A DNA stretch of 24,964 nucleotides from positions 1-24,964 of the forward strand of contig CANFFA010000001.1 of the NCBI GenBank assembly GCA_947445425.1. Direction: 5' to 3'. The DNA is from Paludibacteraceae bacterium. Its GTDB lineage: Bacteria; Bacteroidota; Bacteroidia; Bacteroidales; Paludibacteraceae. The notes beneath the pieces were generated by a model. It ran no database searches and had not been told where the DNA came from. It saw only the letters and a list, made by a program, of their open reading frames with translations. A program made the translations under genes and the position numbers. This document shows positions 6,591-22,726 of the stretch, one piece after another. Position 1 is the first letter of the stretch, and every line of letters begins with the position of its first letter.

Positions 6591-6618
6591 CACCATCAAA
6601 GTAGAGAAACTAACAAAG

Positions 6619-6678
6619 ATGAAAATATTTACTGTAAATGGTTTGGGTTGGTGGCACACAGGATTTCAAAAATCGTGA
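6619..6678 (+). CDS. trpL: trp operon leader peptide
   Basis: A 19-codon frame reads MKIFTVNGLGWWHTGFQKS and ends at TGA 6676-6678. Two adjacent Trp codons (TGG TGG, 6649-6654) in so short a peptide, just upstream of a terminator and the trp genes, are the signature of a ribosome-mediated attenuator. The peptide probably has no function beyond having its translation sensed. The codons after WW bring the ribosome onto the sequence 6672-6680, which can pair with the terminator. Confidence 0.87.
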   Translation: MKIFTVNGLGWWHTGFQKS

Positions 6679-6752
6679 GTGTTACAGCTATGCATTATAT
6701 GTAAATCATATATTATAAAGGCTTGTCGTTACTCACGATGAGCCTTTTTTTT
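6672..6752 (+). terminator. trp attenuator: antiterminator / terminator switch
   Basis: Terminator: 6718-6729 pairs with 6735-6746 (12 bp including two G-U pairs, 5-base loop), followed by eight T at 6745-6752. Antiterminator: ATCGTGAGT at 6672-6680 is perfectly complementary to ACTCACGAT at 6731-6739, the loop and 3' arm of the terminator. The 5' antiterminator arm overlaps the trpL stop codon. A ribosome finishing trpL (Trp plentiful) would cover it and let the terminator form. A ribosome stalled at the TGG pair would leave it free, giving read-through into trpB. The structure is seen in the sequence; the mechanism is inferred from known trp leaders. Confidence 0.85.
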
Positions 6753-6761
6753 ACCTACCAA

Positions 6762-6898
6762 ACCCCTAGCCCCTTAAGGGGGATTAGAATTGTTTTTTCG
6801 ACATCAATTTCACATAAACAAAGACATAATTAACTAGTATGGAGAATAATAAAGAAAACAATAGTAATTCCAACTCCCCTTTAGGGGAAGGAGGTGGA
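6762..6898. repeat. Junction element copy 1 (attenuator to trpB), inverted C-rich arms
   Basis: Left arm from 6762 contains CCCCTTAAGGGG (6770-6781) and continues to CGACATCAA at about 6807. Right arm 6862-6898 contains CCCCTTTAGGGG (6876-6887). The arms are roughly inverted copies of one another around a spacer of about 55 bases. The left arm starts ten bases after the attenuator T-run, so here it does not end a gene. The right arm is translated as TrpB residues about 10-20. Confidence 0.8.
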
Positions 6899-8077
6899 AT
6901 TGACGCAAATGGTTATTATGGTGAATTTGGCGGTGCCTATATTCCTGAAATTCTTCATGGAACAGTGGAACGTCTAAACGCTGCATACCAAGCAATAAAA
7001 GGAGATGCATCCTTTAAAGCGGAGTATTACGATCTATTGAAGCATTATGTCGGACGGCCTTCTCCTTTATATTTTGCCAAAAGATTGTCCGAGAAATATA
7101 ATACTAAAATCTACTTGAAACGGGAAGATTTGAATCATACTGGTGCACACAAGATTAACAATGCCCTGGGTCAGATTTTGTTAGCAAAACGCATGGGTAA
7201 ATCCCGCATTATTGCTGAAACTGGTGCAGGACAACATGGTGTTGCTACGGCCACAGCCTGTGCATTAATGGGATTAGAATGTACAGTATTCATGGGCAAA
7301 ATTGATGTAGAACGTCAGTTTTTGAATGTACAAAAAATGCGCATGTTGGGTGCAAAAGTAGAACCAGTAACCAGTGGAAGTTCCACTCTAAAAGATGCTA
7401 CCAATGAAGCCATTCGCTATTGGTGCTCTAACCCTGATTCTTTTTATATCATCGGTTCCACGGTGGGACCTCACCCCTACCCCGACATGGTTGGATATTT
7501 TCAGTCTGTTATAAGCGAAGAGATTAAAGATCAACTACAAGAACAAATTGGTCGTGATTATCCCGATTATTTGATGGCTTGTGTGGGTGGTGGAAGTAAT
7601 GCTATGGGTACTTATTACCATTTCTTAAGTGATGAAAGAGTGAAAATCATATCGGCCGAAGCGGGTGGTTTAGGAATAAATTCAGGTGAGACGGCGGCTA
7701 CCATAAGCATAGGATCCAAAGGGATAATCCATGGCTTCCGCACTTTATTAATGCAAGACACTGATGGTCAAATCATTGAACCCTATTCTATTTCTGCAGG
7801 TTTAGATTATCCGGGCATAGGACCAGCTCATGCTTTTTACTCAAAAATTGGCCGAACCAAAGTGCATCCCATCAATGATGATGAAGCATTGGAAGCCGCT
7901 TTTGAATTAACGAAACTAGAAGGTATTATTCCCGCTATAGAATCCGCTCATGCATTGGCATTACTAAAAAAAGAAAAAGGGACTTTCAAGCCTGATGATA
8001 TAGTCGTTTTAACTGTTTCCGGAAGAGGAGATAAGGACATGGATACCTATGTAAAATTTTTCACCCCTCACCCCTAA
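6839..8077 (+). CDS. trpB: Tryptophan synthase beta chain
   Basis: This 412-residue PLP enzyme condenses indole and serine to tryptophan in complex with TrpA. The conserved protein begins near GYYGEFGGAYIPE (residue 26). The PLP lysine is Lys105 in HTGAHKINNA, Glu127 in ETGAGQHG is the catalytic glutamate, and GGGS (250-253) binds the PLP phosphate. Residues 1-21 are not family sequence: they are Asn/Ser-rich, end in SPLGEGGG and are encoded by a dispersed repeat. The last residues (FTPHP) and the TAA stop come from a second repeat copy at CCCCTAAAGGGG. It is the first structural gene after the attenuator. trpA is seven genes downstream, as is usual in Bacteroidales. Confidence 0.97.
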   Translation: MENNKENNSNSNSPLGEGGGIDANGYYGEFGGAYIPEILHGTVERLNAAYQAIKGDASFKAEYYDLLKHYVGRPSPLYFAKRLSEKYNTKIYLKREDLNHTGAHKINNALGQILLAKRMGKSRIIAETGAGQHGVATATACALMGLECTVFMGKIDVERQFLNVQKMRMLGAKVEPVTSGSSTLKDATNEAIRYWCSNPDSFYIIGSTVGPHPYPDMVGYFQSVISEEIKDQLQEQIGRDYPDYLMACVGGGSNAMGTYYHFLSDERVKIISAEAGGLGINSGETAATISIGSKGIIHGFRTLLMQDTDGQIIEPYSISAGLDYPGIGPAHAFYSKIGRTKVHPINDDEALEAAFELTKLEGIIPAIESAHALALLKKEKGTFKPDDIVVLTVSGRGDKDMDTYVKFFTPHP

Positions 8078-8228
8078 AGGGGAATGAAATTAGTTCGGTC
8101 GAAATCAATTAAAACATTTAACACCACCAGATGCAATAATAAAGACCACTTCCATGTTTTATGTATAAAAAATATGGGAAATAAAAAAATCAAAAGTAAT
8201 TTCGACACCCCTTTAGGGGTTGGGGGTT
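8062..8228. repeat. Junction element copy 2 (trpB to DUF559 gene)
   Basis: Left arm 8062-8110 holds CCCCTAAAGGGG (8071-8082); the trpB stop TAA is 8075-8077, inside the palindrome. It continues with GAATGAAATTAG and TCGAAATCAA, shared with copy 4. Right arm 8192-8228 holds CCCCTTTAGGGG (8208-8219) followed by TTGGGGGT, and is translated as TPLGVGG at the start of the DUF559 protein. This is the longest copy in the trp operon. Confidence 0.85.
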
Positions 8229-8611
8229 CTAATATGTTTCACGGTGCTCTACCCATTCATTTTGAATTCGCTAGAGAATTGAGAGCAAATCAAACGACTT
8301 CAGAAATATTTCTTTGGCAACATTTAAAAAGTATTCAAACAATACCCAAAGTTCGATTTAGGCGACAACACCCTATCTTACACTTTATTGCAGATTTCTA
8401 TTGCCACAAGGCAAAAATCATAATTGAAATTGACGGAGCTTATCATGATACACCAGATCAATACTTCTACGATAAGTGTCGAGAAGCAGAACTAGAAGCT
8501 TTAGGTTTAAAGGTAATTAGATTTACAAACGAACAAGTGCTTGGGGATATTGAAACTGTATTAAATAAGATCAAGGAAGAACTCAAAAACACAACTGAAT
8601 TAGTCGTTTGA
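8174..8611 (+). CDS. DUF559 endonuclease-like protein
   Basis: From the ATG at 8174 the protein is 145 residues; an in-frame ATG at 8084 lies inside the repeat arm and is less likely. After a repeat-encoded tail ending TPLGVGG, the domain starts at MFHGALPIHFEFARELRANQT. It shows the DUF559 pattern: TSEIFLWQHLK, VRFRRQHPI, FIADFYCHKAKIIIEIDG, then H and a C-terminal LEALGLKVIRFTNEQV. The family is related to Vsr-type very-short-patch-repair endonucleases; the Asp in EIDG and the Glu before it resemble a PD-(D/E)XK-like site. Function is unknown. It has no link to tryptophan synthesis, yet lies between trpB and trpE, flanked by repeat copies. It may be cargo or a partner of the repeat. Confidence 0.82.
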   Translation: MGNKKIKSNFDTPLGVGGSNMFHGALPIHFEFARELRANQTTSEIFLWQHLKSIQTIPKVRFRRQHPILHFIADFYCHKAKIIIEIDGAYHDTPDQYFYDKCREAELEALGLKVIRFTNEQVLGDIETVLNKIKEELKNTTELVV

Positions 8612-8686
8612 CATCAAACAAAACAAATAATATAAATAATATGGAAATCAAAAGTAATTCAAACTCCCCTTTAGGGGTTGGGGGTC
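8596..8686. repeat. Junction element copy 3 (DUF559 gene to trpE), left arm partial
   Basis: The left side keeps only GAATTAG and GACATCAA (8597-8616), matching the distal part of left arms 1, 2 and 4; the CCCCTAAAGGGG core is missing. Right arm 8651-8686 is intact, with CCCCTTTAGGGG at 8666-8677 followed by TTGGGGGT, and encodes NSPLGVGG of TrpE. The DUF559 stop (8609-8611) overlaps the left remnant. Confidence 0.7.
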
Positions 8687-10089
8687 TTATCGTGAATACA
8701 AAGAAAATGCTTGCCGATCTACAAACGCCGGTAGGTATTTATTTAAAGATAAGAGACTTGTATACCAAATCAGTTCTTTTAGAAAGCTCTGATTACCACG
8801 GTGTTGAAAACAGCTATTCCTATATTGGCTTTTGCCCAATCGGTGGGATTTCGGTGAACAATTTTGTCATCACTGAAGAATATCCAGATGGAAGCAAAAT
8901 TGAGACGGCTGTTGAGGATAAAATGACGGTGGCTGAGCGCTTTGATGTATTTTTAAAATCGGTCAATCTAATTAAAAACGAGAATGAAATCGGTGTAAAT
9001 GGCTTGTTTGGCTATTCTTCTTACGAATCAGTGCAATATTTTGAAGATGTAAAACTCTCAGCACGGGGCACAGTTCCAGGAAGCATGCCAGGTCTACACT
9101 ATGTATTATTCAAATACATCATCGCAGTTAACCATTTTAACAATGAATTGACCATCATCGAAAATTTGATGGAAAATGAAGAGAGTAAAATTTCGGAAAT
9201 TGAGGAAGTATTGTCAAGCAATAATTTCGCCACTTACAAATTCGAAGCAGTAGGTGAAGAAAAATCAGACATTACCAACGAACAATACAAAGAGATGGTT
9301 CGCAAAGGAAAAGAACAGTGCTACAAAGGAAATGTATTTCAAATTGTATTGTCACGTCGTTTTTACCAAGAATACAAAGGAGACGATTTTATGCTTTACC
9401 GCACCTTACGCTCTGTGAATCCTTCTCCTTACTTATTCTATTTCAACTTTGGTGATTTCCGCATTTTTGGGTCTTCACCTGAAGCCCATTTAGTGGTTGA
9501 TGCAAAAAAACAAAAGGCTTATATTAAACCCATTGCAGGAACCTTCCGTCGTACGGGGGATGATGAAAAGGATTTTCAATTAGCAGAAAAACTGCGTCAA
9601 GACAAAAAAGAAAATGCAGAGCATGTGATGTTGGTCGATTTGGCACGCAATGACTTGAGCCGCAACACCGACCATGTAGAAGTTGAAGTATTTAGAGAAG
9701 TGCAATATTATTCTCATGTATTACATTTGGTTTCTAGTGTCAGTGGAAGATTGAAACCAGACACCAAAGTCATCAAACTCTTTGCAGATACCTTCCCGGC
9801 AGGAACGCTTTCGGGAGCTCCTAAAATTAAAGCCTTACAACTTATCGATCAAATTGAACCACACGACCGTGGTCCTTATGGCGGATGTTTGGGATACATT
9901 GGCTTCGATGGCAGCTTTAATCAGGCCATTACGATACGTTCTTTTGTAAGTAAAAATAATACTTTGTACTACCAAGCTGGTGCTGGAATAGTTGCAAAAT
10001 CTGATGAAGAAAGTGAGTTGCAGGAAGTAAATAATAAATTGGCGGCATTGAAAAAAGCGGTGGATGTGGCTTCAACCCCTAAGCCCTAA
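8641..10089 (+). CDS. trpE: Anthranilate synthase component I
   Basis: This 482-residue subunit converts chorismate to anthranilate with ammonia delivered by TrpG. ATG 8641 is preferred over a TTG-initiated extension from 8608, which would overlap the DUF559 stop. The chorismate-binding domain is clear: GSSPEAHLVV, PIAGTFRRTGDDEKD, HVMLVDLARNDLSR, GTLSGAPKIKALQLID and GGCLGYIGFDG. The feedback-site element LLESSDYHGVENSYSYIG is present near the N-terminus. Residues 1-16 (ending NSPLGVGG) are repeat-encoded. The C-terminal STPKP and the stop codon also lie in a repeat arm. This is the committed step of the pathway. Confidence 0.96.
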   Translation: MEIKSNSNSPLGVGGLIVNTKKMLADLQTPVGIYLKIRDLYTKSVLLESSDYHGVENSYSYIGFCPIGGISVNNFVITEEYPDGSKIETAVEDKMTVAERFDVFLKSVNLIKNENEIGVNGLFGYSSYESVQYFEDVKLSARGTVPGSMPGLHYVLFKYIIAVNHFNNELTIIENLMENEESKISEIEEVLSSNNFATYKFEAVGEEKSDITNEQYKEMVRKGKEQCYKGNVFQIVLSRRFYQEYKGDDFMLYRTLRSVNPSPYLFYFNFGDFRIFGSSPEAHLVVDAKKQKAYIKPIAGTFRRTGDDEKDFQLAEKLRQDKKENAEHVMLVDLARNDLSRNTDHVEVEVFREVQYYSHVLHLVSSVSGRLKPDTKVIKLFADTFPAGTLSGAPKIKALQLIDQIEPHDRGPYGGCLGYIGFDGSFNQAITIRSFVSKNNTLYYQAGAGIVAKSDEESELQEVNNKLAALKKAVDVASTPKP

Positions 10090-10200
10090 AGGGGAATGAG
10101 ATTAGCTTTTCGAAATCAACACTTTACATAAAGATTCTTAATATGGAAAAAAATATAGAAAATAAAAGCAAATCCAACTCCCCTTCAGGGGTTGGGGGTT
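10073..10200. repeat. Junction element copy 4 (trpE to trpG)
   Basis: Left arm 10073-10119 has GCCCTAAAGGGG (10083-10094) containing the trpE stop at 10087-10089, then GAATGAGATTAG and CGAAATCAAC. Right arm 10164-10200 has CCCCTTCAGGGG (10180-10191) followed by TTGGGGGT and encodes NSPSGVGG of TrpG. The interior resembles copy 1: both run from CGAMATCAA through TTYACATAAA, so homology extends beyond the C-rich cores. Confidence 0.85.
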
Positions 10201-12529: not shown

Positions 12530-13324
12530 ATGTCAACAATATTAGATAAAATAATAGCCGACAAGCTAATAGAAGTTGCAGAGCGCAAAGCCACAATTTC
12601 CATTTCCGACCTAGAGAAATCTCTTGATTTTAAGAGAAAGTGCCTTTCCATGAAACAAAGCCTGCTCAATTCAGAATCAGGCATCATTGCCGAGTTCAAG
12701 CGGAAATCGCCCTCTCTTGGGTGGATACATGAACATGCAGATGTTCAGACGGTTACTTCAGGCTATTCAGATGCAGGTGCCTCAGGTATTTCAATTTTGA
12801 CGGATTTTCCCTATTTTGGAGGAACTCCAGCTGATTTAATCGCTGCCCGTCCCTCTATCAAATGTCCTGTTTTACGTAAAGATTTCATTGTTGACGAATA
12901 CCAATTGTATGAAGCCAAGGCGATGGGTGCTGATGTCATTTTGCTTATTGCAGCAGCCCTGAGTTCATCACAAACGAAACAGCTGGGACGAAAGGCACAT
13001 GAATTGGGCTTGGAAGTTCTGTTGGAAGTTCACAACCGCGCAGAATTAGACCATGCAAATGAATTTGTGGACATGCTGGGCGTCAATAACCGTAACCTAA
13101 AAACTTTCGAACAAAGCATTCAGGTTTCATTTGACTTGGCCAACTTAATACCGAATAATTTTGCCAAAGTGAGTGAAAGCGGTATTTCAAAAGTAGAGAC
13201 GGTCCGTGAGCTTCGTGAGGCAGGATATTGCGGATTTTTGATGGGAGAGAATTTCATGAAAGAAGAAAATCCAGCGGAAGCTATGAGCAAATTTATTAAA
13301 AAAATTAAAAATGGAAACCAATAA
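12530..13324 (+). CDS. trpC: Indole-3-glycerol-phosphate synthase
   Basis: This 264-residue TIM barrel closes the indole ring from carboxyphenylamino-deoxyribulose phosphate. Its active-site motifs are in order: IIAEFKRKSPSLGWI (52-66, with Glu55 and Lys57), PVLRKDFIVDEYQLYEAKAMGAD, VLLEVHNRAEL, LGVNNRNLKTF and KVSESGIS. It is a stand-alone protein, not fused to TrpF. Its last 14 bases overlap the trpF start. It follows the toxin remnant by 90 bases in which I see no strong signal. Confidence 0.96.
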   Translation: MSTILDKIIADKLIEVAERKATISISDLEKSLDFKRKCLSMKQSLLNSESGIIAEFKRKSPSLGWIHEHADVQTVTSGYSDAGASGISILTDFPYFGGTPADLIAARPSIKCPVLRKDFIVDEYQLYEAKAMGADVILLIAAALSSSQTKQLGRKAHELGLEVLLEVHNRAELDHANEFVDMLGVNNRNLKTFEQSIQVSFDLANLIPNNFAKVSESGISKVETVRELREAGYCGFLMGENFMKEENPAEAMSKFIKKIKNGNQ

Positions 13325-13979
13325 TAATCTCAATGCCACTTTAGGGTTTAGGGATTCTTTAAAAATAAAAATTTGTGGGATGAAATTTCCCGACAACATA
13401 CAAGCTGTAACAGATTTAAAACCTGATTTTTTAGGATTTATATTTTATCCAAAATCCCCAAGATATCCAGAAACATTGGATATTGATTTATTGCTAAATA
13501 TTCCAAGAAATATCCTGAAAATTGGAGTCTTTGTAAATGAAACACAAGACAATATCCTTGAAACAGTCAAGAAATACAGTTTACAAGGGGTGCAATTACA
13601 CGGTTCAGAATCAGAGGAGCTTTGTTACACCTTAAAATCACTTGGATTTTTGGTTTTCAAAGCATTTCCAATTGCTGATGCAACTGATTTTAAAGCAACT
13701 GAAAATTATGAAGGGGCGTGCGACTTCTTCCTTTTTGACACCAAAACCCCTACACATGGAGGTTCTGGAGTTAAATTCGATTGGTCTATACTCTCATCCT
13801 ATCAAGGAGATACTCGTTTTCTTCTGAGTGGTGGGATTTCAGTGGAAGATGTGGAAATAATCAAGTTAATAAATCATCCAAAAATGATTGGTGTCGACCT
13901 GAATAGCCGCTTTGAAATTAGCCCAGGAATGAAAGACTCAACGCTATTAGCTGAATTTATTACTGCCATAAAATCTTGA
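13311..13979 (+). CDS. trpF: Phosphoribosylanthranilate isomerase
   Basis: This 222-residue TIM barrel performs the Amadori rearrangement of phosphoribosylanthranilate. The catalytic Cys22 lies in LKIKICGMK and the catalytic Asp143 in FLFDTKTPTHGGSG; GVQLHGSES and FLLSGGIS are the usual barrel motifs. Most TrpF proteins begin at KIKICGM. Here residues 1-16 (METNNNLNATLGFRDS) precede it and are encoded by a decayed repeat arm reading CCACTTTAGGGTTTAGGG. The first 14 bases overlap trpC, which suggests coupled translation. Confidence 0.95.
   Translation: METNNNLNATLGFRDSLKIKICGMKFPDNIQAVTDLKPDFLGFIFYPKSPRYPETLDIDLLLNIPRNILKIGVFVNETQDNILETVKKYSLQGVQLHGSESEELCYTLKSLGFLVFKAFPIADATDFKATENYEGACDFFLFDTKTPTHGGSGVKFDWSILSSYQGDTRFLLSGGISVEDVEIIKLINHPKMIGVDLNSRFEISPGMKDSTLLAEFITAIKS
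13335..13355. repeat. Decayed half element at the trpF start
   Basis: CCACTTTAGGGTTTAGGG resembles the right arm of the junction element, with the palindromic core lost, and is closest to the arm before argH (CCACTTTAGGGGCTAGG at 21365). No left arm is visible in trpC. It is translated as part of the TrpF N-terminal tail. Confidence 0.55.
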
Positions 13980-14836: not shown

Positions 14837-14868
14837 TCGTAGAGGCGCAATGCATTGTGCCTCTACGA
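14837..14868. terminator. 32-bp near-perfect palindrome between trpA and tag
   Basis: TCGTAGAGGCGCAATG pairs with CATTGTGCCTCTACGA, with one G-T pair. It belongs to the same family as the palindromes at 1575 and 10787. It lies 8 bases after the trpA stop and contains the tag stop codon (14863-14865) on the other strand. The position between convergent genes suits a bidirectional terminator, but neither side has a long T-run. Confidence 0.75.
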
Positions 14869-15526: not shown

Positions 15527-16066
15527 ATGTTCAATCCGCATGAAATAATTGAGAAATACTACCCAAAACATGATGATATTCATTATGTTTTAATTACCCA
15601 CAGTGAACAAGTAAGAAATAAAGCATTAGAAATAGCTTCTTTACATCCAGAATTTGACTTGGATTTGGAATTCATCTCAGAAGCTGCTATGCTCCATGAC
15701 ATTGGAGTTTTCCTTTGCGACGCAGAACGTATACACTGTTATGGGAAACATAAGTACATTGAACATGGTTATTTAGGAGCAGATTTATTACGTGCTGAAG
15801 GACTTCACCGTCATGCTTTAGTAGCAGAACGCCACACTGGCGTTGGGATAAGTTTAGAGCTAATTGAAAGACGGCAGCTCCCTCTACCCCATCGCGATTT
15901 TCTACCCATATCTATGGAAGAACAAGTGATTTGTTATGCTGACAAGTTTTTTTCCAAAACCCAATTGGGAAATGTGCATTCTGTTGAGCGGATCAGAACT
16001 AACTTAAGTCATCATAGTGAAATTGACGTACTTAAATTTGATTTGTGGCATAAAATCTTTCAATAG
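15527..16066 (+). CDS. HD-domain phosphohydrolase
   Basis: This 179-residue protein has an HD metal-binding fold: a first His in LITHSEQV (near residue 25), the His-Asp pair in AAMLHDIGVF (near 60), later histidines in KYIEHGYLGADLLRAEGLHRHALVAERHTGVG, and an Asp in QVICYADKFF. This is the order expected of an HD/HDIG hydrolase acting on phosphoesters or nucleotides. The substrate cannot be read from the sequence. Small proteins of this type are common in Bacteroidetes. Its stop codon TAG is the first triplet of a long perfect hairpin. Confidence 0.85.
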   Translation: MFNPHEIIEKYYPKHDDIHYVLITHSEQVRNKALEIASLHPEFDLDLEFISEAAMLHDIGVFLCDAERIHCYGKHKYIEHGYLGADLLRAEGLHRHALVAERHTGVGISLELIERRQLPLPHRDFLPISMEEQVICYADKFFSKTQLGNVHSVERIRTNLSHHSEIDVLKFDLWHKIFQ

Positions 16067-16138
16067 ACATTAGATAAAAGAACAAAGACTAAAGACAGTG
16101 AATTCGTCTTTAGTCTTTGTTCTTTTATCTAATGTCTA
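16064..16138. terminator. 33-bp perfect inverted repeat, probable bidirectional terminator
   Basis: Arms 16064-16096 and 16106-16138 are exact reverse complements, with a 9-base loop containing GAATTC. The stem begins at the HD gene stop codon, and the convergent DUF3078 gene ends 26 bases beyond it. The stem is A/T-rich with a TCTTTTATCT stretch on the 3' side. A stem this long and perfect exceeds what termination needs and suggests a recent origin or a repeat family. Confidence 0.8.
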
Positions 16139-20777: not shown

Positions 20778-21209
20778 ATGAGTCAGACTACTTATGAAAG
20801 TGATATTAAAACCATTTCTTCCTCGGAAGAAGTGGTTTTTGGCATCCTAAGCGACCTTAACAACTTAAGAAAATTTCAAGACAACCCTCAATTGGGCGAT
20901 AAACTTAAAGATATAGAGTTTAATACCGACAGCTGTAATTTCACTGTAGAGGGTTTTGGGAAAGTGGGCTTGCAAATTATTGAACGAGAAGCTTTCAAAA
21001 GCATTAAATTCGAGTCAACAAATGCCCCTGTCAAAGTGAATCTATGGATACAACTTAAACAAGTTGAGGAGAATGACACCAGACTAAAATTGACATTGAA
21101 AGCTGAATTACCTACCATGATTAAAATGATGGTAGACAAAAAGTTGAAAGAAGGGATAAACATGGTGGCGGATTTGCTGGCAAAAGCATTGTCTACCCCT
21201 AACCCCTAA
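20778..21209 (+). CDS. SRPBCC-fold (polyketide cyclase/START-like) protein
   Basis: A 143-residue protein from ATG 20778 (MSQTTYESDIKTISSSEEVVF). An open frame back to 20700 overlaps the pyrE end and adds non-conserved residues. The opening strand, the helix LSDLNNLRKF, a run of antiparallel strands and the long C-terminal helix MIKMMVDKKLKEGINMVADLLAKAL fit the SRPBCC hydrophobic-ligand fold. No ligand or function is known; such a gene beside pyrE is common in Bacteroidales. The last five residues, STPNP, and the stop are encoded by the C-rich repeat arm (CCCCTAAAGGGG from 21203). Confidence 0.82.
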   Translation: MSQTTYESDIKTISSSEEVVFGILSDLNNLRKFQDNPQLGDKLKDIEFNTDSCNFTVEGFGKVGLQIIEREAFKSIKFESTNAPVKVNLWIQLKQVEENDTRLKLTLKAELPTMIKMMVDKKLKEGINMVADLLAKALSTPNP

Positions 21210-21385
21210 AGGGGAGTAGGAGCTGTGAATAAAGAAATGGTTTCCGTTTGATAACGGATTTAATAAAAAACAATTTCAGCTTCCTAAAAATTAAAATCAA
21301 AACAGTCAATCACTAAATAATATTTCTACCTTAATTATCAATAAGGATAGTAAGTAATCAAATACCACTTTAGGGGCTAGGTGCA
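21193..21385. repeat. Junction element copy 5 (SRPBCC gene to argH)
   Basis: Left arm 21193-21222 has ACCCCTAACCCCTAAAGGGG, with the SRPBCC stop TAA at 21207-21209. Right arm 21365-21383 is CCACTTTAGGGGCTAGGTG, six bases before the argH ATG, so it is untranslated. The interior (about 140 bases) does not resemble copies 1-4. It includes a small hairpin (TCCGTT at 21243-21248 with AACGGA at 21253-21258). Confidence 0.7.
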
Positions 21386-21388
21386 AAT

Positions 21389-22726
21389 ATGGCAAAACTT
21401 TGGGAAAAAACTACGCAGGTTGATGCGAAAATTGAAGCTTTTACAGTAGGACGCGATCGTGAGATGGACCTATTTTTAGCAAAGTACGATGTAATGGGTT
21501 CAATGGCTCATATTCGTATGTTGGAGTCTGTTGGTCTATTACAAGCTGATGAGCTTAAAACATTGCTTACAGAGTTAAAAAAGATCTACCTATTGGCAGA
21601 CAGCGGGCAATTCACTATCGAAGAGGGTGTTGAAGATGTCCACTCACAAGTGGAAATGTTACTGACTACAAGCTTGGGAGACATGGGCAAAAAGATTCAC
21701 AGTGGCCGATCTCGTAATGACCAAGTATTATTGGATTTAAAGCTATTTTCCCGCGCCGAAATTGAAAAAACGGTCCTTGCTGTTTCTGAGCTTTTTGAAG
21801 TACTTATTTCTCAAAGCAATAAATACAAAGACGTACTACTTCCAGGCTACACACACCTACAAGTTGCCATGCCATCTTCCTTTGGACTTTGGTTTGGAGC
21901 TTATGCTGAAAGTCTTGCCGATGATTTACAACTACTCCTTTCGGCTTGGAAAATCACGAACCGCAACCCTTTGGGTTCTGCTGCTGGATATGGCTCATCC
22001 TTTCCACTCAACCGACAGATGACCACTGATCTACTGGGTTTTGACTCCATGAATTACAATGTAGTCTATGCGCAAATGGGGCGTGGGAAAATGGAGCGCA
22101 CCGTAGCAAACGCATTGGCAAGTGTGGCGGCAACGATTTCAAAACTAGCCTTTGACGCTTGTATGTTTACCTCTCAAAACTTTGGATTCATAAAACTACC
22201 TGACAATTTCACGACTGGTTCTAGCATAATGCCGCACAAAAAGAATCCGGATGTTTTCGAACTTACCCGCGCAAAATGCAACAAACTCCAATCACTTCCA
22301 CAGCAGATCATGATGATTACCAATAACTTGCCTTCAGGTTATTTCCGCGATTTGCAAATCATCAAAGAGGTATTTGTTCCTGCATTTGGAGAGTTGACAG
22401 ACTGTATAGAAATGACCGCTATGATGATGGCCCAAGTAGAAGTAAATGCTGACATACTAAAAGAGGATAGATACGATTATCTTTTCAGCGTGGAGGAGGT
22501 AAATCGCCTCACGCTCACTGGCGTACCTTTTAGAGATGCCTACAAGCAAGTGGGACTTGAAATTGAAGCCGGCAAATTCAAACCAAACAAAACCGTAAAT
22601 CATACCCACCAAGGAAGCATTGGTAATTTGTTTAATGATGAAATTTGTGCTTATAAAAACGAAGTGCTTTCACAATTTAGTTTTAATAAAATGCATACAG
22701 CATTGGCTGATCTATTAGCTGATTAA
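21389..22726 (+). CDS. argH: Argininosuccinate lyase
   Basis: This 445-residue homotetrameric lyase splits argininosuccinate into arginine and fumarate. The fumarase/aspartase signature GSSIMPHKKNP is at 277-287, with Ser278/Ser279 in the catalytic loop. His156 in GYTHLQVAMPSSFG is the conserved histidine, and EDVHSQVE plus KIHSGRSRNDQ (substrate-binding loop) are intact. The C-terminus is slightly short relative to E. coli, as usual in this phylum. The gene starts without a repeat-encoded tail, although a repeat arm ends just before it. A strong hairpin follows. Confidence 0.96.
   Translation: MAKLWEKTTQVDAKIEAFTVGRDREMDLFLAKYDVMGSMAHIRMLESVGLLQADELKTLLTELKKIYLLADSGQFTIEEGVEDVHSQVEMLLTTSLGDMGKKIHSGRSRNDQVLLDLKLFSRAEIEKTVLAVSELFEVLISQSNKYKDVLLPGYTHLQVAMPSSFGLWFGAYAESLADDLQLLLSAWKITNRNPLGSAAGYGSSFPLNRQMTTDLLGFDSMNYNVVYAQMGRGKMERTVANALASVAATISKLAFDACMFTSQNFGFIKLPDNFTTGSSIMPHKKNPDVFELTRAKCNKLQSLPQQIMMITNNLPSGYFRDLQIIKEVFVPAFGELTDCIEMTAMMMAQVEVNADILKEDRYDYLFSVEEVNRLTLTGVPFRDAYKQVGLEIEAGKFKPNKTVNHTHQGSIGNLFNDEICAYKNEVLSQFSFNKMHTALADLLAD

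Follow-up and report, generated by a model that had tools for sequence, protein, structure and literature searches.

The stretch of DNA analysed here, called the window below, comprises 24,964 nucleotides of a Paludibacteraceae bacterium (assembly GCA_947445425.1, contig CANFFA010000001.1, positions 1 to 24,964, forward strand) and carries trp genes whose junctions are occupied by a palindromic element, one pair of copies enclosing a DUF559 nuclease gene. An earlier note, made from the sequence alone, had described one unit with paired inverted arms at each of four junctions. The four units are present where the note placed them, all on the forward strand, and their layout is as claimed apart from details of two copies. 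Copy 1 lies between the trp leader RNA and trpB (6762–6895; left end 6762–6781, right end 6876–6895) and on translation provides an ATG and a leader peptide (MENNKENNSNSNSPLGEGGG; 6839–6898) fused in frame to TrpB; its right end departs from the right arm given as common to the copies, with GGGGAAGGAGGT in place of GGGGTTGGGGGT. Copy 2 (8063–8227; right end 8208–8227) follows trpB, whose stop codon comes from its left end (8063–8082, ..TPHP*). Copy 3 (8597–8685; right end 8666–8685; leader ATG at 8641 fused to TrpE) lies at the DUF559/trpE junction; it has no left palindrome and retains just the inner left sequence GAATTAG..GACATCAA. Copy 4, between trpE and trpG (10075–10199; right end 10180–10199), gives the TrpE stop from its left end (10075–10094, ..STPKP*) and a leader ATG at 10143 fused to TrpG, and shares TTYACATAAA in its core with copy 1, as the note had seen. 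The window holds two more, degenerate copies, both on the forward strand: a right end and its leader where trpF begins (13311–13352, METNNNLNATLGFRD..), a position at which three trpF loci in relatives show both parts clearly, and a unit between a CoxG-like gene, which it terminates from its left end (..STPNP*), and the next gene, starting at 21389 (21195–21381).

Between copies 2 and 3 lies an open reading frame (ORF; 8084–8611, forward strand) that probably starts at ATG 8174 in the copy-2 leader and encodes a putative endonuclease of the DUF559 family (PF04480, 114.4 bits against a curated cut-off of 20.6; domain match 8264–8584). It is the single match to this family in the source genome, and it is bracketed by two copies of leader plus right end, which form direct repeats.

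In the draft genome of 2.52 Mb (76% complete) the palindrome CCCCTNNAGGGG is found at 36 places, the reversed pattern at none; across 48 genomes of the genus its count ranges from 0 to 340, with at most 3 for the reversed control. The unit consists of an imperfect inverted repeat of about 20–34 bp flanking a variable core, and two copies fold as long hairpins under DNA parameters (z-scores of −2.28 and, for copy 4, −4.95). Terminal inverted repeats, as in MITEs, were present in a set of 64 elements with complementarity above that of shuffles. This complementarity runs on into the flanks (56 elements at position 1 against a shuffled mean of 37.4, 33 against 18.3 at position 2, and 27 against 17.1 at position 3), indicating that both ends of one copy come from one subfamily. 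Among the relatives, G015 (genomes are given as G and loci as L numbers) contains dispersed pairs of complete elements that are identical end to end at 94.6% (74 bp) and 90.4% (115 bp) and have unrelated flanks.

Occupancy of the trp junctions differs between genomes. The trpB–trpE spacer was readable at 34 loci, of which 5 contain DUF559, 6 a right end without DUF559 and 23 neither; the corresponding counts for trpE–trpG are 1, 15 and 21 of 37 readable loci, very degenerate ends being scored as neither in both. Empty trpB–trpE spacers are as short as 29 bp (G044) and 34 bp (G032), lengths beside trpE being possibly off by a few bases. The nuclease is carried between trpB and trpE by the window, G004, G011 and G001 and, with a broken frame, by G043; in the trpE–trpG spacer it is carried by G024, again with a broken frame. 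The four intact trpB–trpE nucleases do not form one group in the best tree, a single origin not being rejected (p-AU 0.104). With closely similar copies dispersed among unrelated flanks, and presence or absence at one junction in sister species, the small non-autonomous gene-boundary element proposed in the earlier note is supported. Neither ground on which that note would have given it up applies: further copies are many in the genome, and the sequence is not an ancestral spacer conserved at the junctions. The trp junctions of G034 (L099) and G039 (L288) are filled by other repeat families, for example arrays of AACACGAAGTAAATAACGGACGAAGTC.

The ends of the element can be translated. At 41 loci with a right end no more than 60 nt upstream of a trp or DUF559 gene, 49 of 50 right ends are open in frame from an ATG scored inside or before that end (an example of the leader is MEKNIENKSKSNSPSGVGG), and of the 100 alternative frames 2 are open. 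An ATG behind the right end is retained in 3 of these 50, while 161 of 197 genes that lack a right end carry an ATG close to where the start is expected. Of 25 homologues aligned with the DUF559 ORF of the window, 22 have a longer leader, by eye mostly SPLGVGG-like, ahead of the conserved MFYGALPIHFE start. Outside trp the leader is a minority: counts made on ORFs, not on annotated genes, gave 9 native ATGs and 5 fusions in G000 (3 of the fusions from the window) and 24 native, 5 fused and 2 other starts in G015, where the right end is no more than 25 nt away from 18 of the 24 native starts. We infer from the proximity of native starts and from the leader fusions that the units land shortly before start codons and that, in the leader-bearing kind, the ATG of the element takes over.

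Palindromes and DUF559 genes tend to occur together. In palindrome-rich genomes, CCCCTNNAGGGG lies within 350 bp of 10 of 20 small DUF559 loci, on both sides in 9 of them, and several of the other DUF559 loci bear other inverted palindromes, of the CCTCCAAGGAGG, CCCCCAAATGGGGG and GGGGACGAGCGAAGCGGAGGGG types. Over several phyla, a flanking inverted repeat with a score of at least 13 was found at 53 of 109 small DUF559 loci, compared with 24 of 313 pairs of mismatched flanks. On the DUF559 tree the palindrome types are clustered, with 33 changes against a shuffled mean of 50.0 and none of 200 shuffles as low (trees exclude DUF559 pieces shorter than 85 residues and long-ORF copies). A hairpin pattern looser than the palindrome proper to each genome, CCCTCTCY..AGAGGG, is frequent in the DUF559-bearing genomes G151 (34), G152 (39), G153 (31) and G157 (13) and rare in G149 (4), G150 (3), G155 (3) and G156 (0); it also occurs 27 times in G154 (control 2), where it is not the cognate palindrome. 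Among the 48 genomes the palindrome count correlates with the number of small DUF559 genes among the matches listed (rho 0.67), and the partial rank correlation given genome size and the count of Y1 transposases is 0.55 (0 of 5000 permutations), both values being uncorrected for kinship.

The structure model of DUF559 (mean pLDDT 85.5) matches 3hrl, both chains of I-Bth0305I and PvuRts1I, and more weakly Vsr. Foldseek aligned it to I-Bth0305I (3r3p) with an E-value of 2.8e-5 and TM scores of 0.62/0.82, and profile searches retrieved 3hrl (2.1e-29) and I-Bth0305I (1.4e-5). The predicted fold is that of the homing endonuclease I-Bth0305I, of the Vsr / EDxHD type.

DUF559 is also found grafted into conserved proteins. 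About 60 of the matches listed in relatives lie in frames longer than 260 residues, and at all 13 such loci scanned the domain sits within another protein in an open frame: ValS (L037, L040, L048, L062), IleS (L035, L039 twice, L043), LeuS (L044, L047), UvrA (L036, L045), PurL (L046) and MetH (L050), the host proteins of L044, L045 and L046 being named from Pfam only. By eye, 12 of the 13 grafts have hairpin-type ends on both sides; L036 has a degenerate left end, and L039 and L062 have imperfect right ones. ValS, matched in 44 of the 48 genomes, was compared at 29 parsed loci out of 30 fetched, and one loop proved to have 9 residues in 23 of them, 17 residues in one, a bare palindrome (16–19 residues) in three and DUF559 inserts of 147 and 151 residues in two, with a third carrier (G024) outside the 30. 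In UvrA, G006 and G003 are 96% identical over the segment searched; at the same site G006 has 165 residues with two palindromic ends around DUF559, and G003 has 26 residues with GCCCCCTAAATCCCCCAAGGGGGACTTAGGGGGC instead. A script found hairpins in 5 of 30 UvrA loops, that of G033 possibly by chance. The ValS loop, the UvrA loop and the trpB–trpE spacer are fixed sites at which DUF559 recurs in several species, others having a bare palindrome or nothing. A single isoleucyl-tRNA synthetase frame, in L039 (G022, contig C52), apparently carries DUF559 twice, at a distance of about 1.7 kb. The grafts of L040 (ValS), L044 (LeuS) and L035 (IleS) lie shortly ahead of a TTRPET / TTTPWT motif in these paralogous synthetases, as if a conserved stretch of DNA were the target.

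Taken together, these results suggest, with a probability that we put at roughly 0.6, that the units are short copies of a homing-like mobile palindromic element with a DUF559 nuclease. Its full form would consist of a palindromic end, the nuclease gene and a second palindromic end. DUF559 would be the driver and most likely cleave unoccupied sites, either spacers just ahead of start codons or conserved gene loops; repair of the break would copy the element into the cut site, and recombination between the repeats flanking the nuclease would yield the nuclease-less palindrome. The left end would quickly terminate the upstream gene and the right end could supply an ATG and a leader in frame with the downstream one, the whole unit becoming an open-frame insert inside essential genes; the element would survive in dense operons because it is translatable. 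The earlier note, which could not name a family, is supported as to a mobile-looking unit; it overlooked the nuclease, as well as the translation of the leader and the presence of in-frame copies inside essential genes. More tentatively, and at slightly less than even chances, the window may exemplify a class of mobile nuclease elements in several phyla that lack intron, intein and transposase, survive by translatability (landing next to start codons with their own start and leader, or as open-frame grafts in loops of essential enzymes) and shed nuclease-less palindromes that make up REP-like families, each with its own DUF559 clade.

Several observations weigh against this proposal. A target-site duplication, expected by the earlier note, was sought in the 64 elements (2–5 bp, offsets 0–2) and showed no excess at p < 0.03. 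Half of the small DUF559 loci in palindrome-rich genomes (10 of 20) are without CCCCTNNAGGGG, 7 of them carrying another palindrome by eye or script, and among 108 small DUF559 rows 56 lack a flanking inverted repeat that reaches a score of 13, 'none' being the largest class. Gene-sized gaps between neighbouring palindromes, taken unsorted, contain mostly host genes, with DUF559 in 2 of 16 (ORFs named by eye). Palindrome counts also track genome size (0.61) and the uncorrected Y1 count (0.53), and kinship may enter the count correlations given above. Palindromes are many in G008 (141), G010 (111), G025 (95), G032 (55), G012 (50) and G020 (50), with no small DUF559 gene among the matches listed; G008, G012 and G020 carry long-frame DUF559 and G032 one weak match (7.1e-4), and G010 and G025 have no DUF559 at all among the matches listed. 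The last two, and G032 with its weak match, fit loss, incomplete assembly or another mover. As to the enzyme, the D of DFYC and the D and H of EVDG..H in DUF559 stand opposite A, N and W in I-Bth0305I (3r3p), so that this alignment does not establish a common active site; 3hrl retains those D, D and H residues. Finally, the case is built on sequence and a predicted fold, from which cleavage and movement are proposed.

Another factor, as yet unseen, could spread the palindromes, with DUF559 as a homing-endonuclease parasite that uses them as homology arms and as safe sites to land in. A nuclease that depended on the elements would be expected to show the association, the correlation and the clade–palindrome pairing just as well, and both the palindrome-rich genomes in which no DUF559 is among the matches listed and the direct repeats around the nuclease of the window agree with such a parasite. 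We nevertheless consider this unlikely: no other mover was found, none of 20 Y1 loci being flanked by the CCCCTNNAGGGG palindrome, and each DUF559 clade would require an independent mover of its own, since several clades within one genus have their own palindromes.

It is far less probable that splicing removes the grafts as inteins or introns, even though DUF559 is assigned to the EDxHD homing family in a section on the inteins of a cyanobacterium (PMC9403480). Pfam scans of the 13 graft proteins detected no splicing domain, and eight graft loci gave no Rfam match at gathering score; the inserts are of about 140 residues, DUF559 taking up about 108 of them, and neither palindromic end interrupts the open frame. 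We rejected the intein or intron reading on these scans.

It is also very improbable that the units are REP/BIME sequences moved by a Y1 transposase of the RAYT type and that DUF559 is their neighbour by chance. Y1 genes are common in the genus and, as said, their uncorrected count follows that of the palindromes. However, in the palindrome-rich genomes CCCCTNNAGGGG lies within 350 bp of 0 of 20 Y1 loci, many of which have palindromes of their own of different types, and the partial correlation of Y1 with palindrome count is 0.11 (2402 of 5000 permutations as large). Moreover, G020, G032 and G044 have 50, 55 and 21 palindromes without a Y1 match, and G045 has six Y1 matches and no palindrome. 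A RAYT as mover was rejected on the unflanked Y1 loci and the low partial correlation. A structured regulatory RNA kept at operon junctions, the other explanation offered by the earlier note, would agree with the long hairpins and the location in operons and is nonetheless very improbable as the main explanation, since presence at a junction differs between sister species, copies lie at unrelated places, including between tRNA genes, and no Rfam family reached its gathering score for the elements of the region. Copy 4 did match microRNA families in Rfam, far under their gathering scores, and these matches reflect the hairpin. Palindromic pairs nearly without a core were seen between tRNA genes in L020 (Gly/Tyr and Trp) and L273 (Tyr/Gly).

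Parts of the proposed homing-like element are known separately: palindromic repeats, Vsr-fold homing nucleases and in-frame palindromes. REPIN/BIME sequences with their RAYT (PMC3733652; PMC3116915; PMC8266576) resemble the present case in their dispersed GC-rich palindromes, often in inverted pairs, and in a single palindrome-flanked gene as candidate mover. Multi-copy palindromes in inverted pairs are found here as well, at 36 places in this genome and up to 340 in others of the genus. In contrast to those systems, the flanked gene is a DUF559 nuclease and not a Y1 transposase, visual inspection of the 64 elements showed no constant GTAG tag at their ends, and the ends are translated as leader or graft. 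With the EDxHD homing endonuclease I-Bth0305I (PDB 3r3p; PMC3943268) there is a common catalytic-domain fold, as predicted here, and, for EDxHD homing endonucleases, recurrent insertion at fixed sites of conserved genes. Unlike I-Bth0305I, DUF559 has no surrounding intron or intein, the element has palindromic ends and short nuclease-less copies, and the aligned catalytic residues differ. We know of no nuclease for the palindromic elements of Rickettsia. Their description in the part covered of one source (PMC3733652) is alike in that palindromes stand in frame within protein genes, as here in the ValS and UvrA loops and the DUF559 grafts, a likeness by description and not by sequence alignment. 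VsrA of Caulobacter is a DUF559 protein, on which the SOS response of cells without the methylase ScmA depends; it has the domain of the window nuclease in common and is proposed to be a host mismatch-repair enzyme, palindromes being unmentioned in the parts covered of that source (PMC12907096). In the open-licence PMC literature, as far as its texts were covered, we recognised none that links DUF559 to palindromic repeats or describes in-frame DUF559 inserts. That search turned up neither the combination nor DUF559 grafted in an open frame into essential enzymes, and the element looks like a form of bacterial selfish DNA that has been little described. DUF559, a widespread domain, is catalogued without a function, and for some palindromes of REP-like type (those of the CGTC kind) no mover is known (PMC3733652); pairing the two gives a testable mechanism. 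The grafts in ValS, IleS, LeuS and UvrA would illustrate the entry of a selfish nuclease into essential proteins without splicing, and through the leader fusions TrpB, TrpE, TrpG and other proteins of many of these species would owe their N-termini to the element.

Other features of the window can be mentioned. A tryptophan leader RNA with a WW leader peptide (6599–6727, forward strand) matches Rfam RF01692 (Bacteroid-trp) with 48.4 bits, slightly below the gathering score of 49; element copy 1 separates this RNA from trpB. Another family of palindromic repeats (TAGAGACGCAATGCATTGCGTCTCTA with a variant form), at 1472–1616 and 14840–14865, adjoins a 25-nt tandem array. At the end of the ORF 15527–16066 there is a perfect 33-nt inverted repeat with a 9-nt loop (16064–16138).

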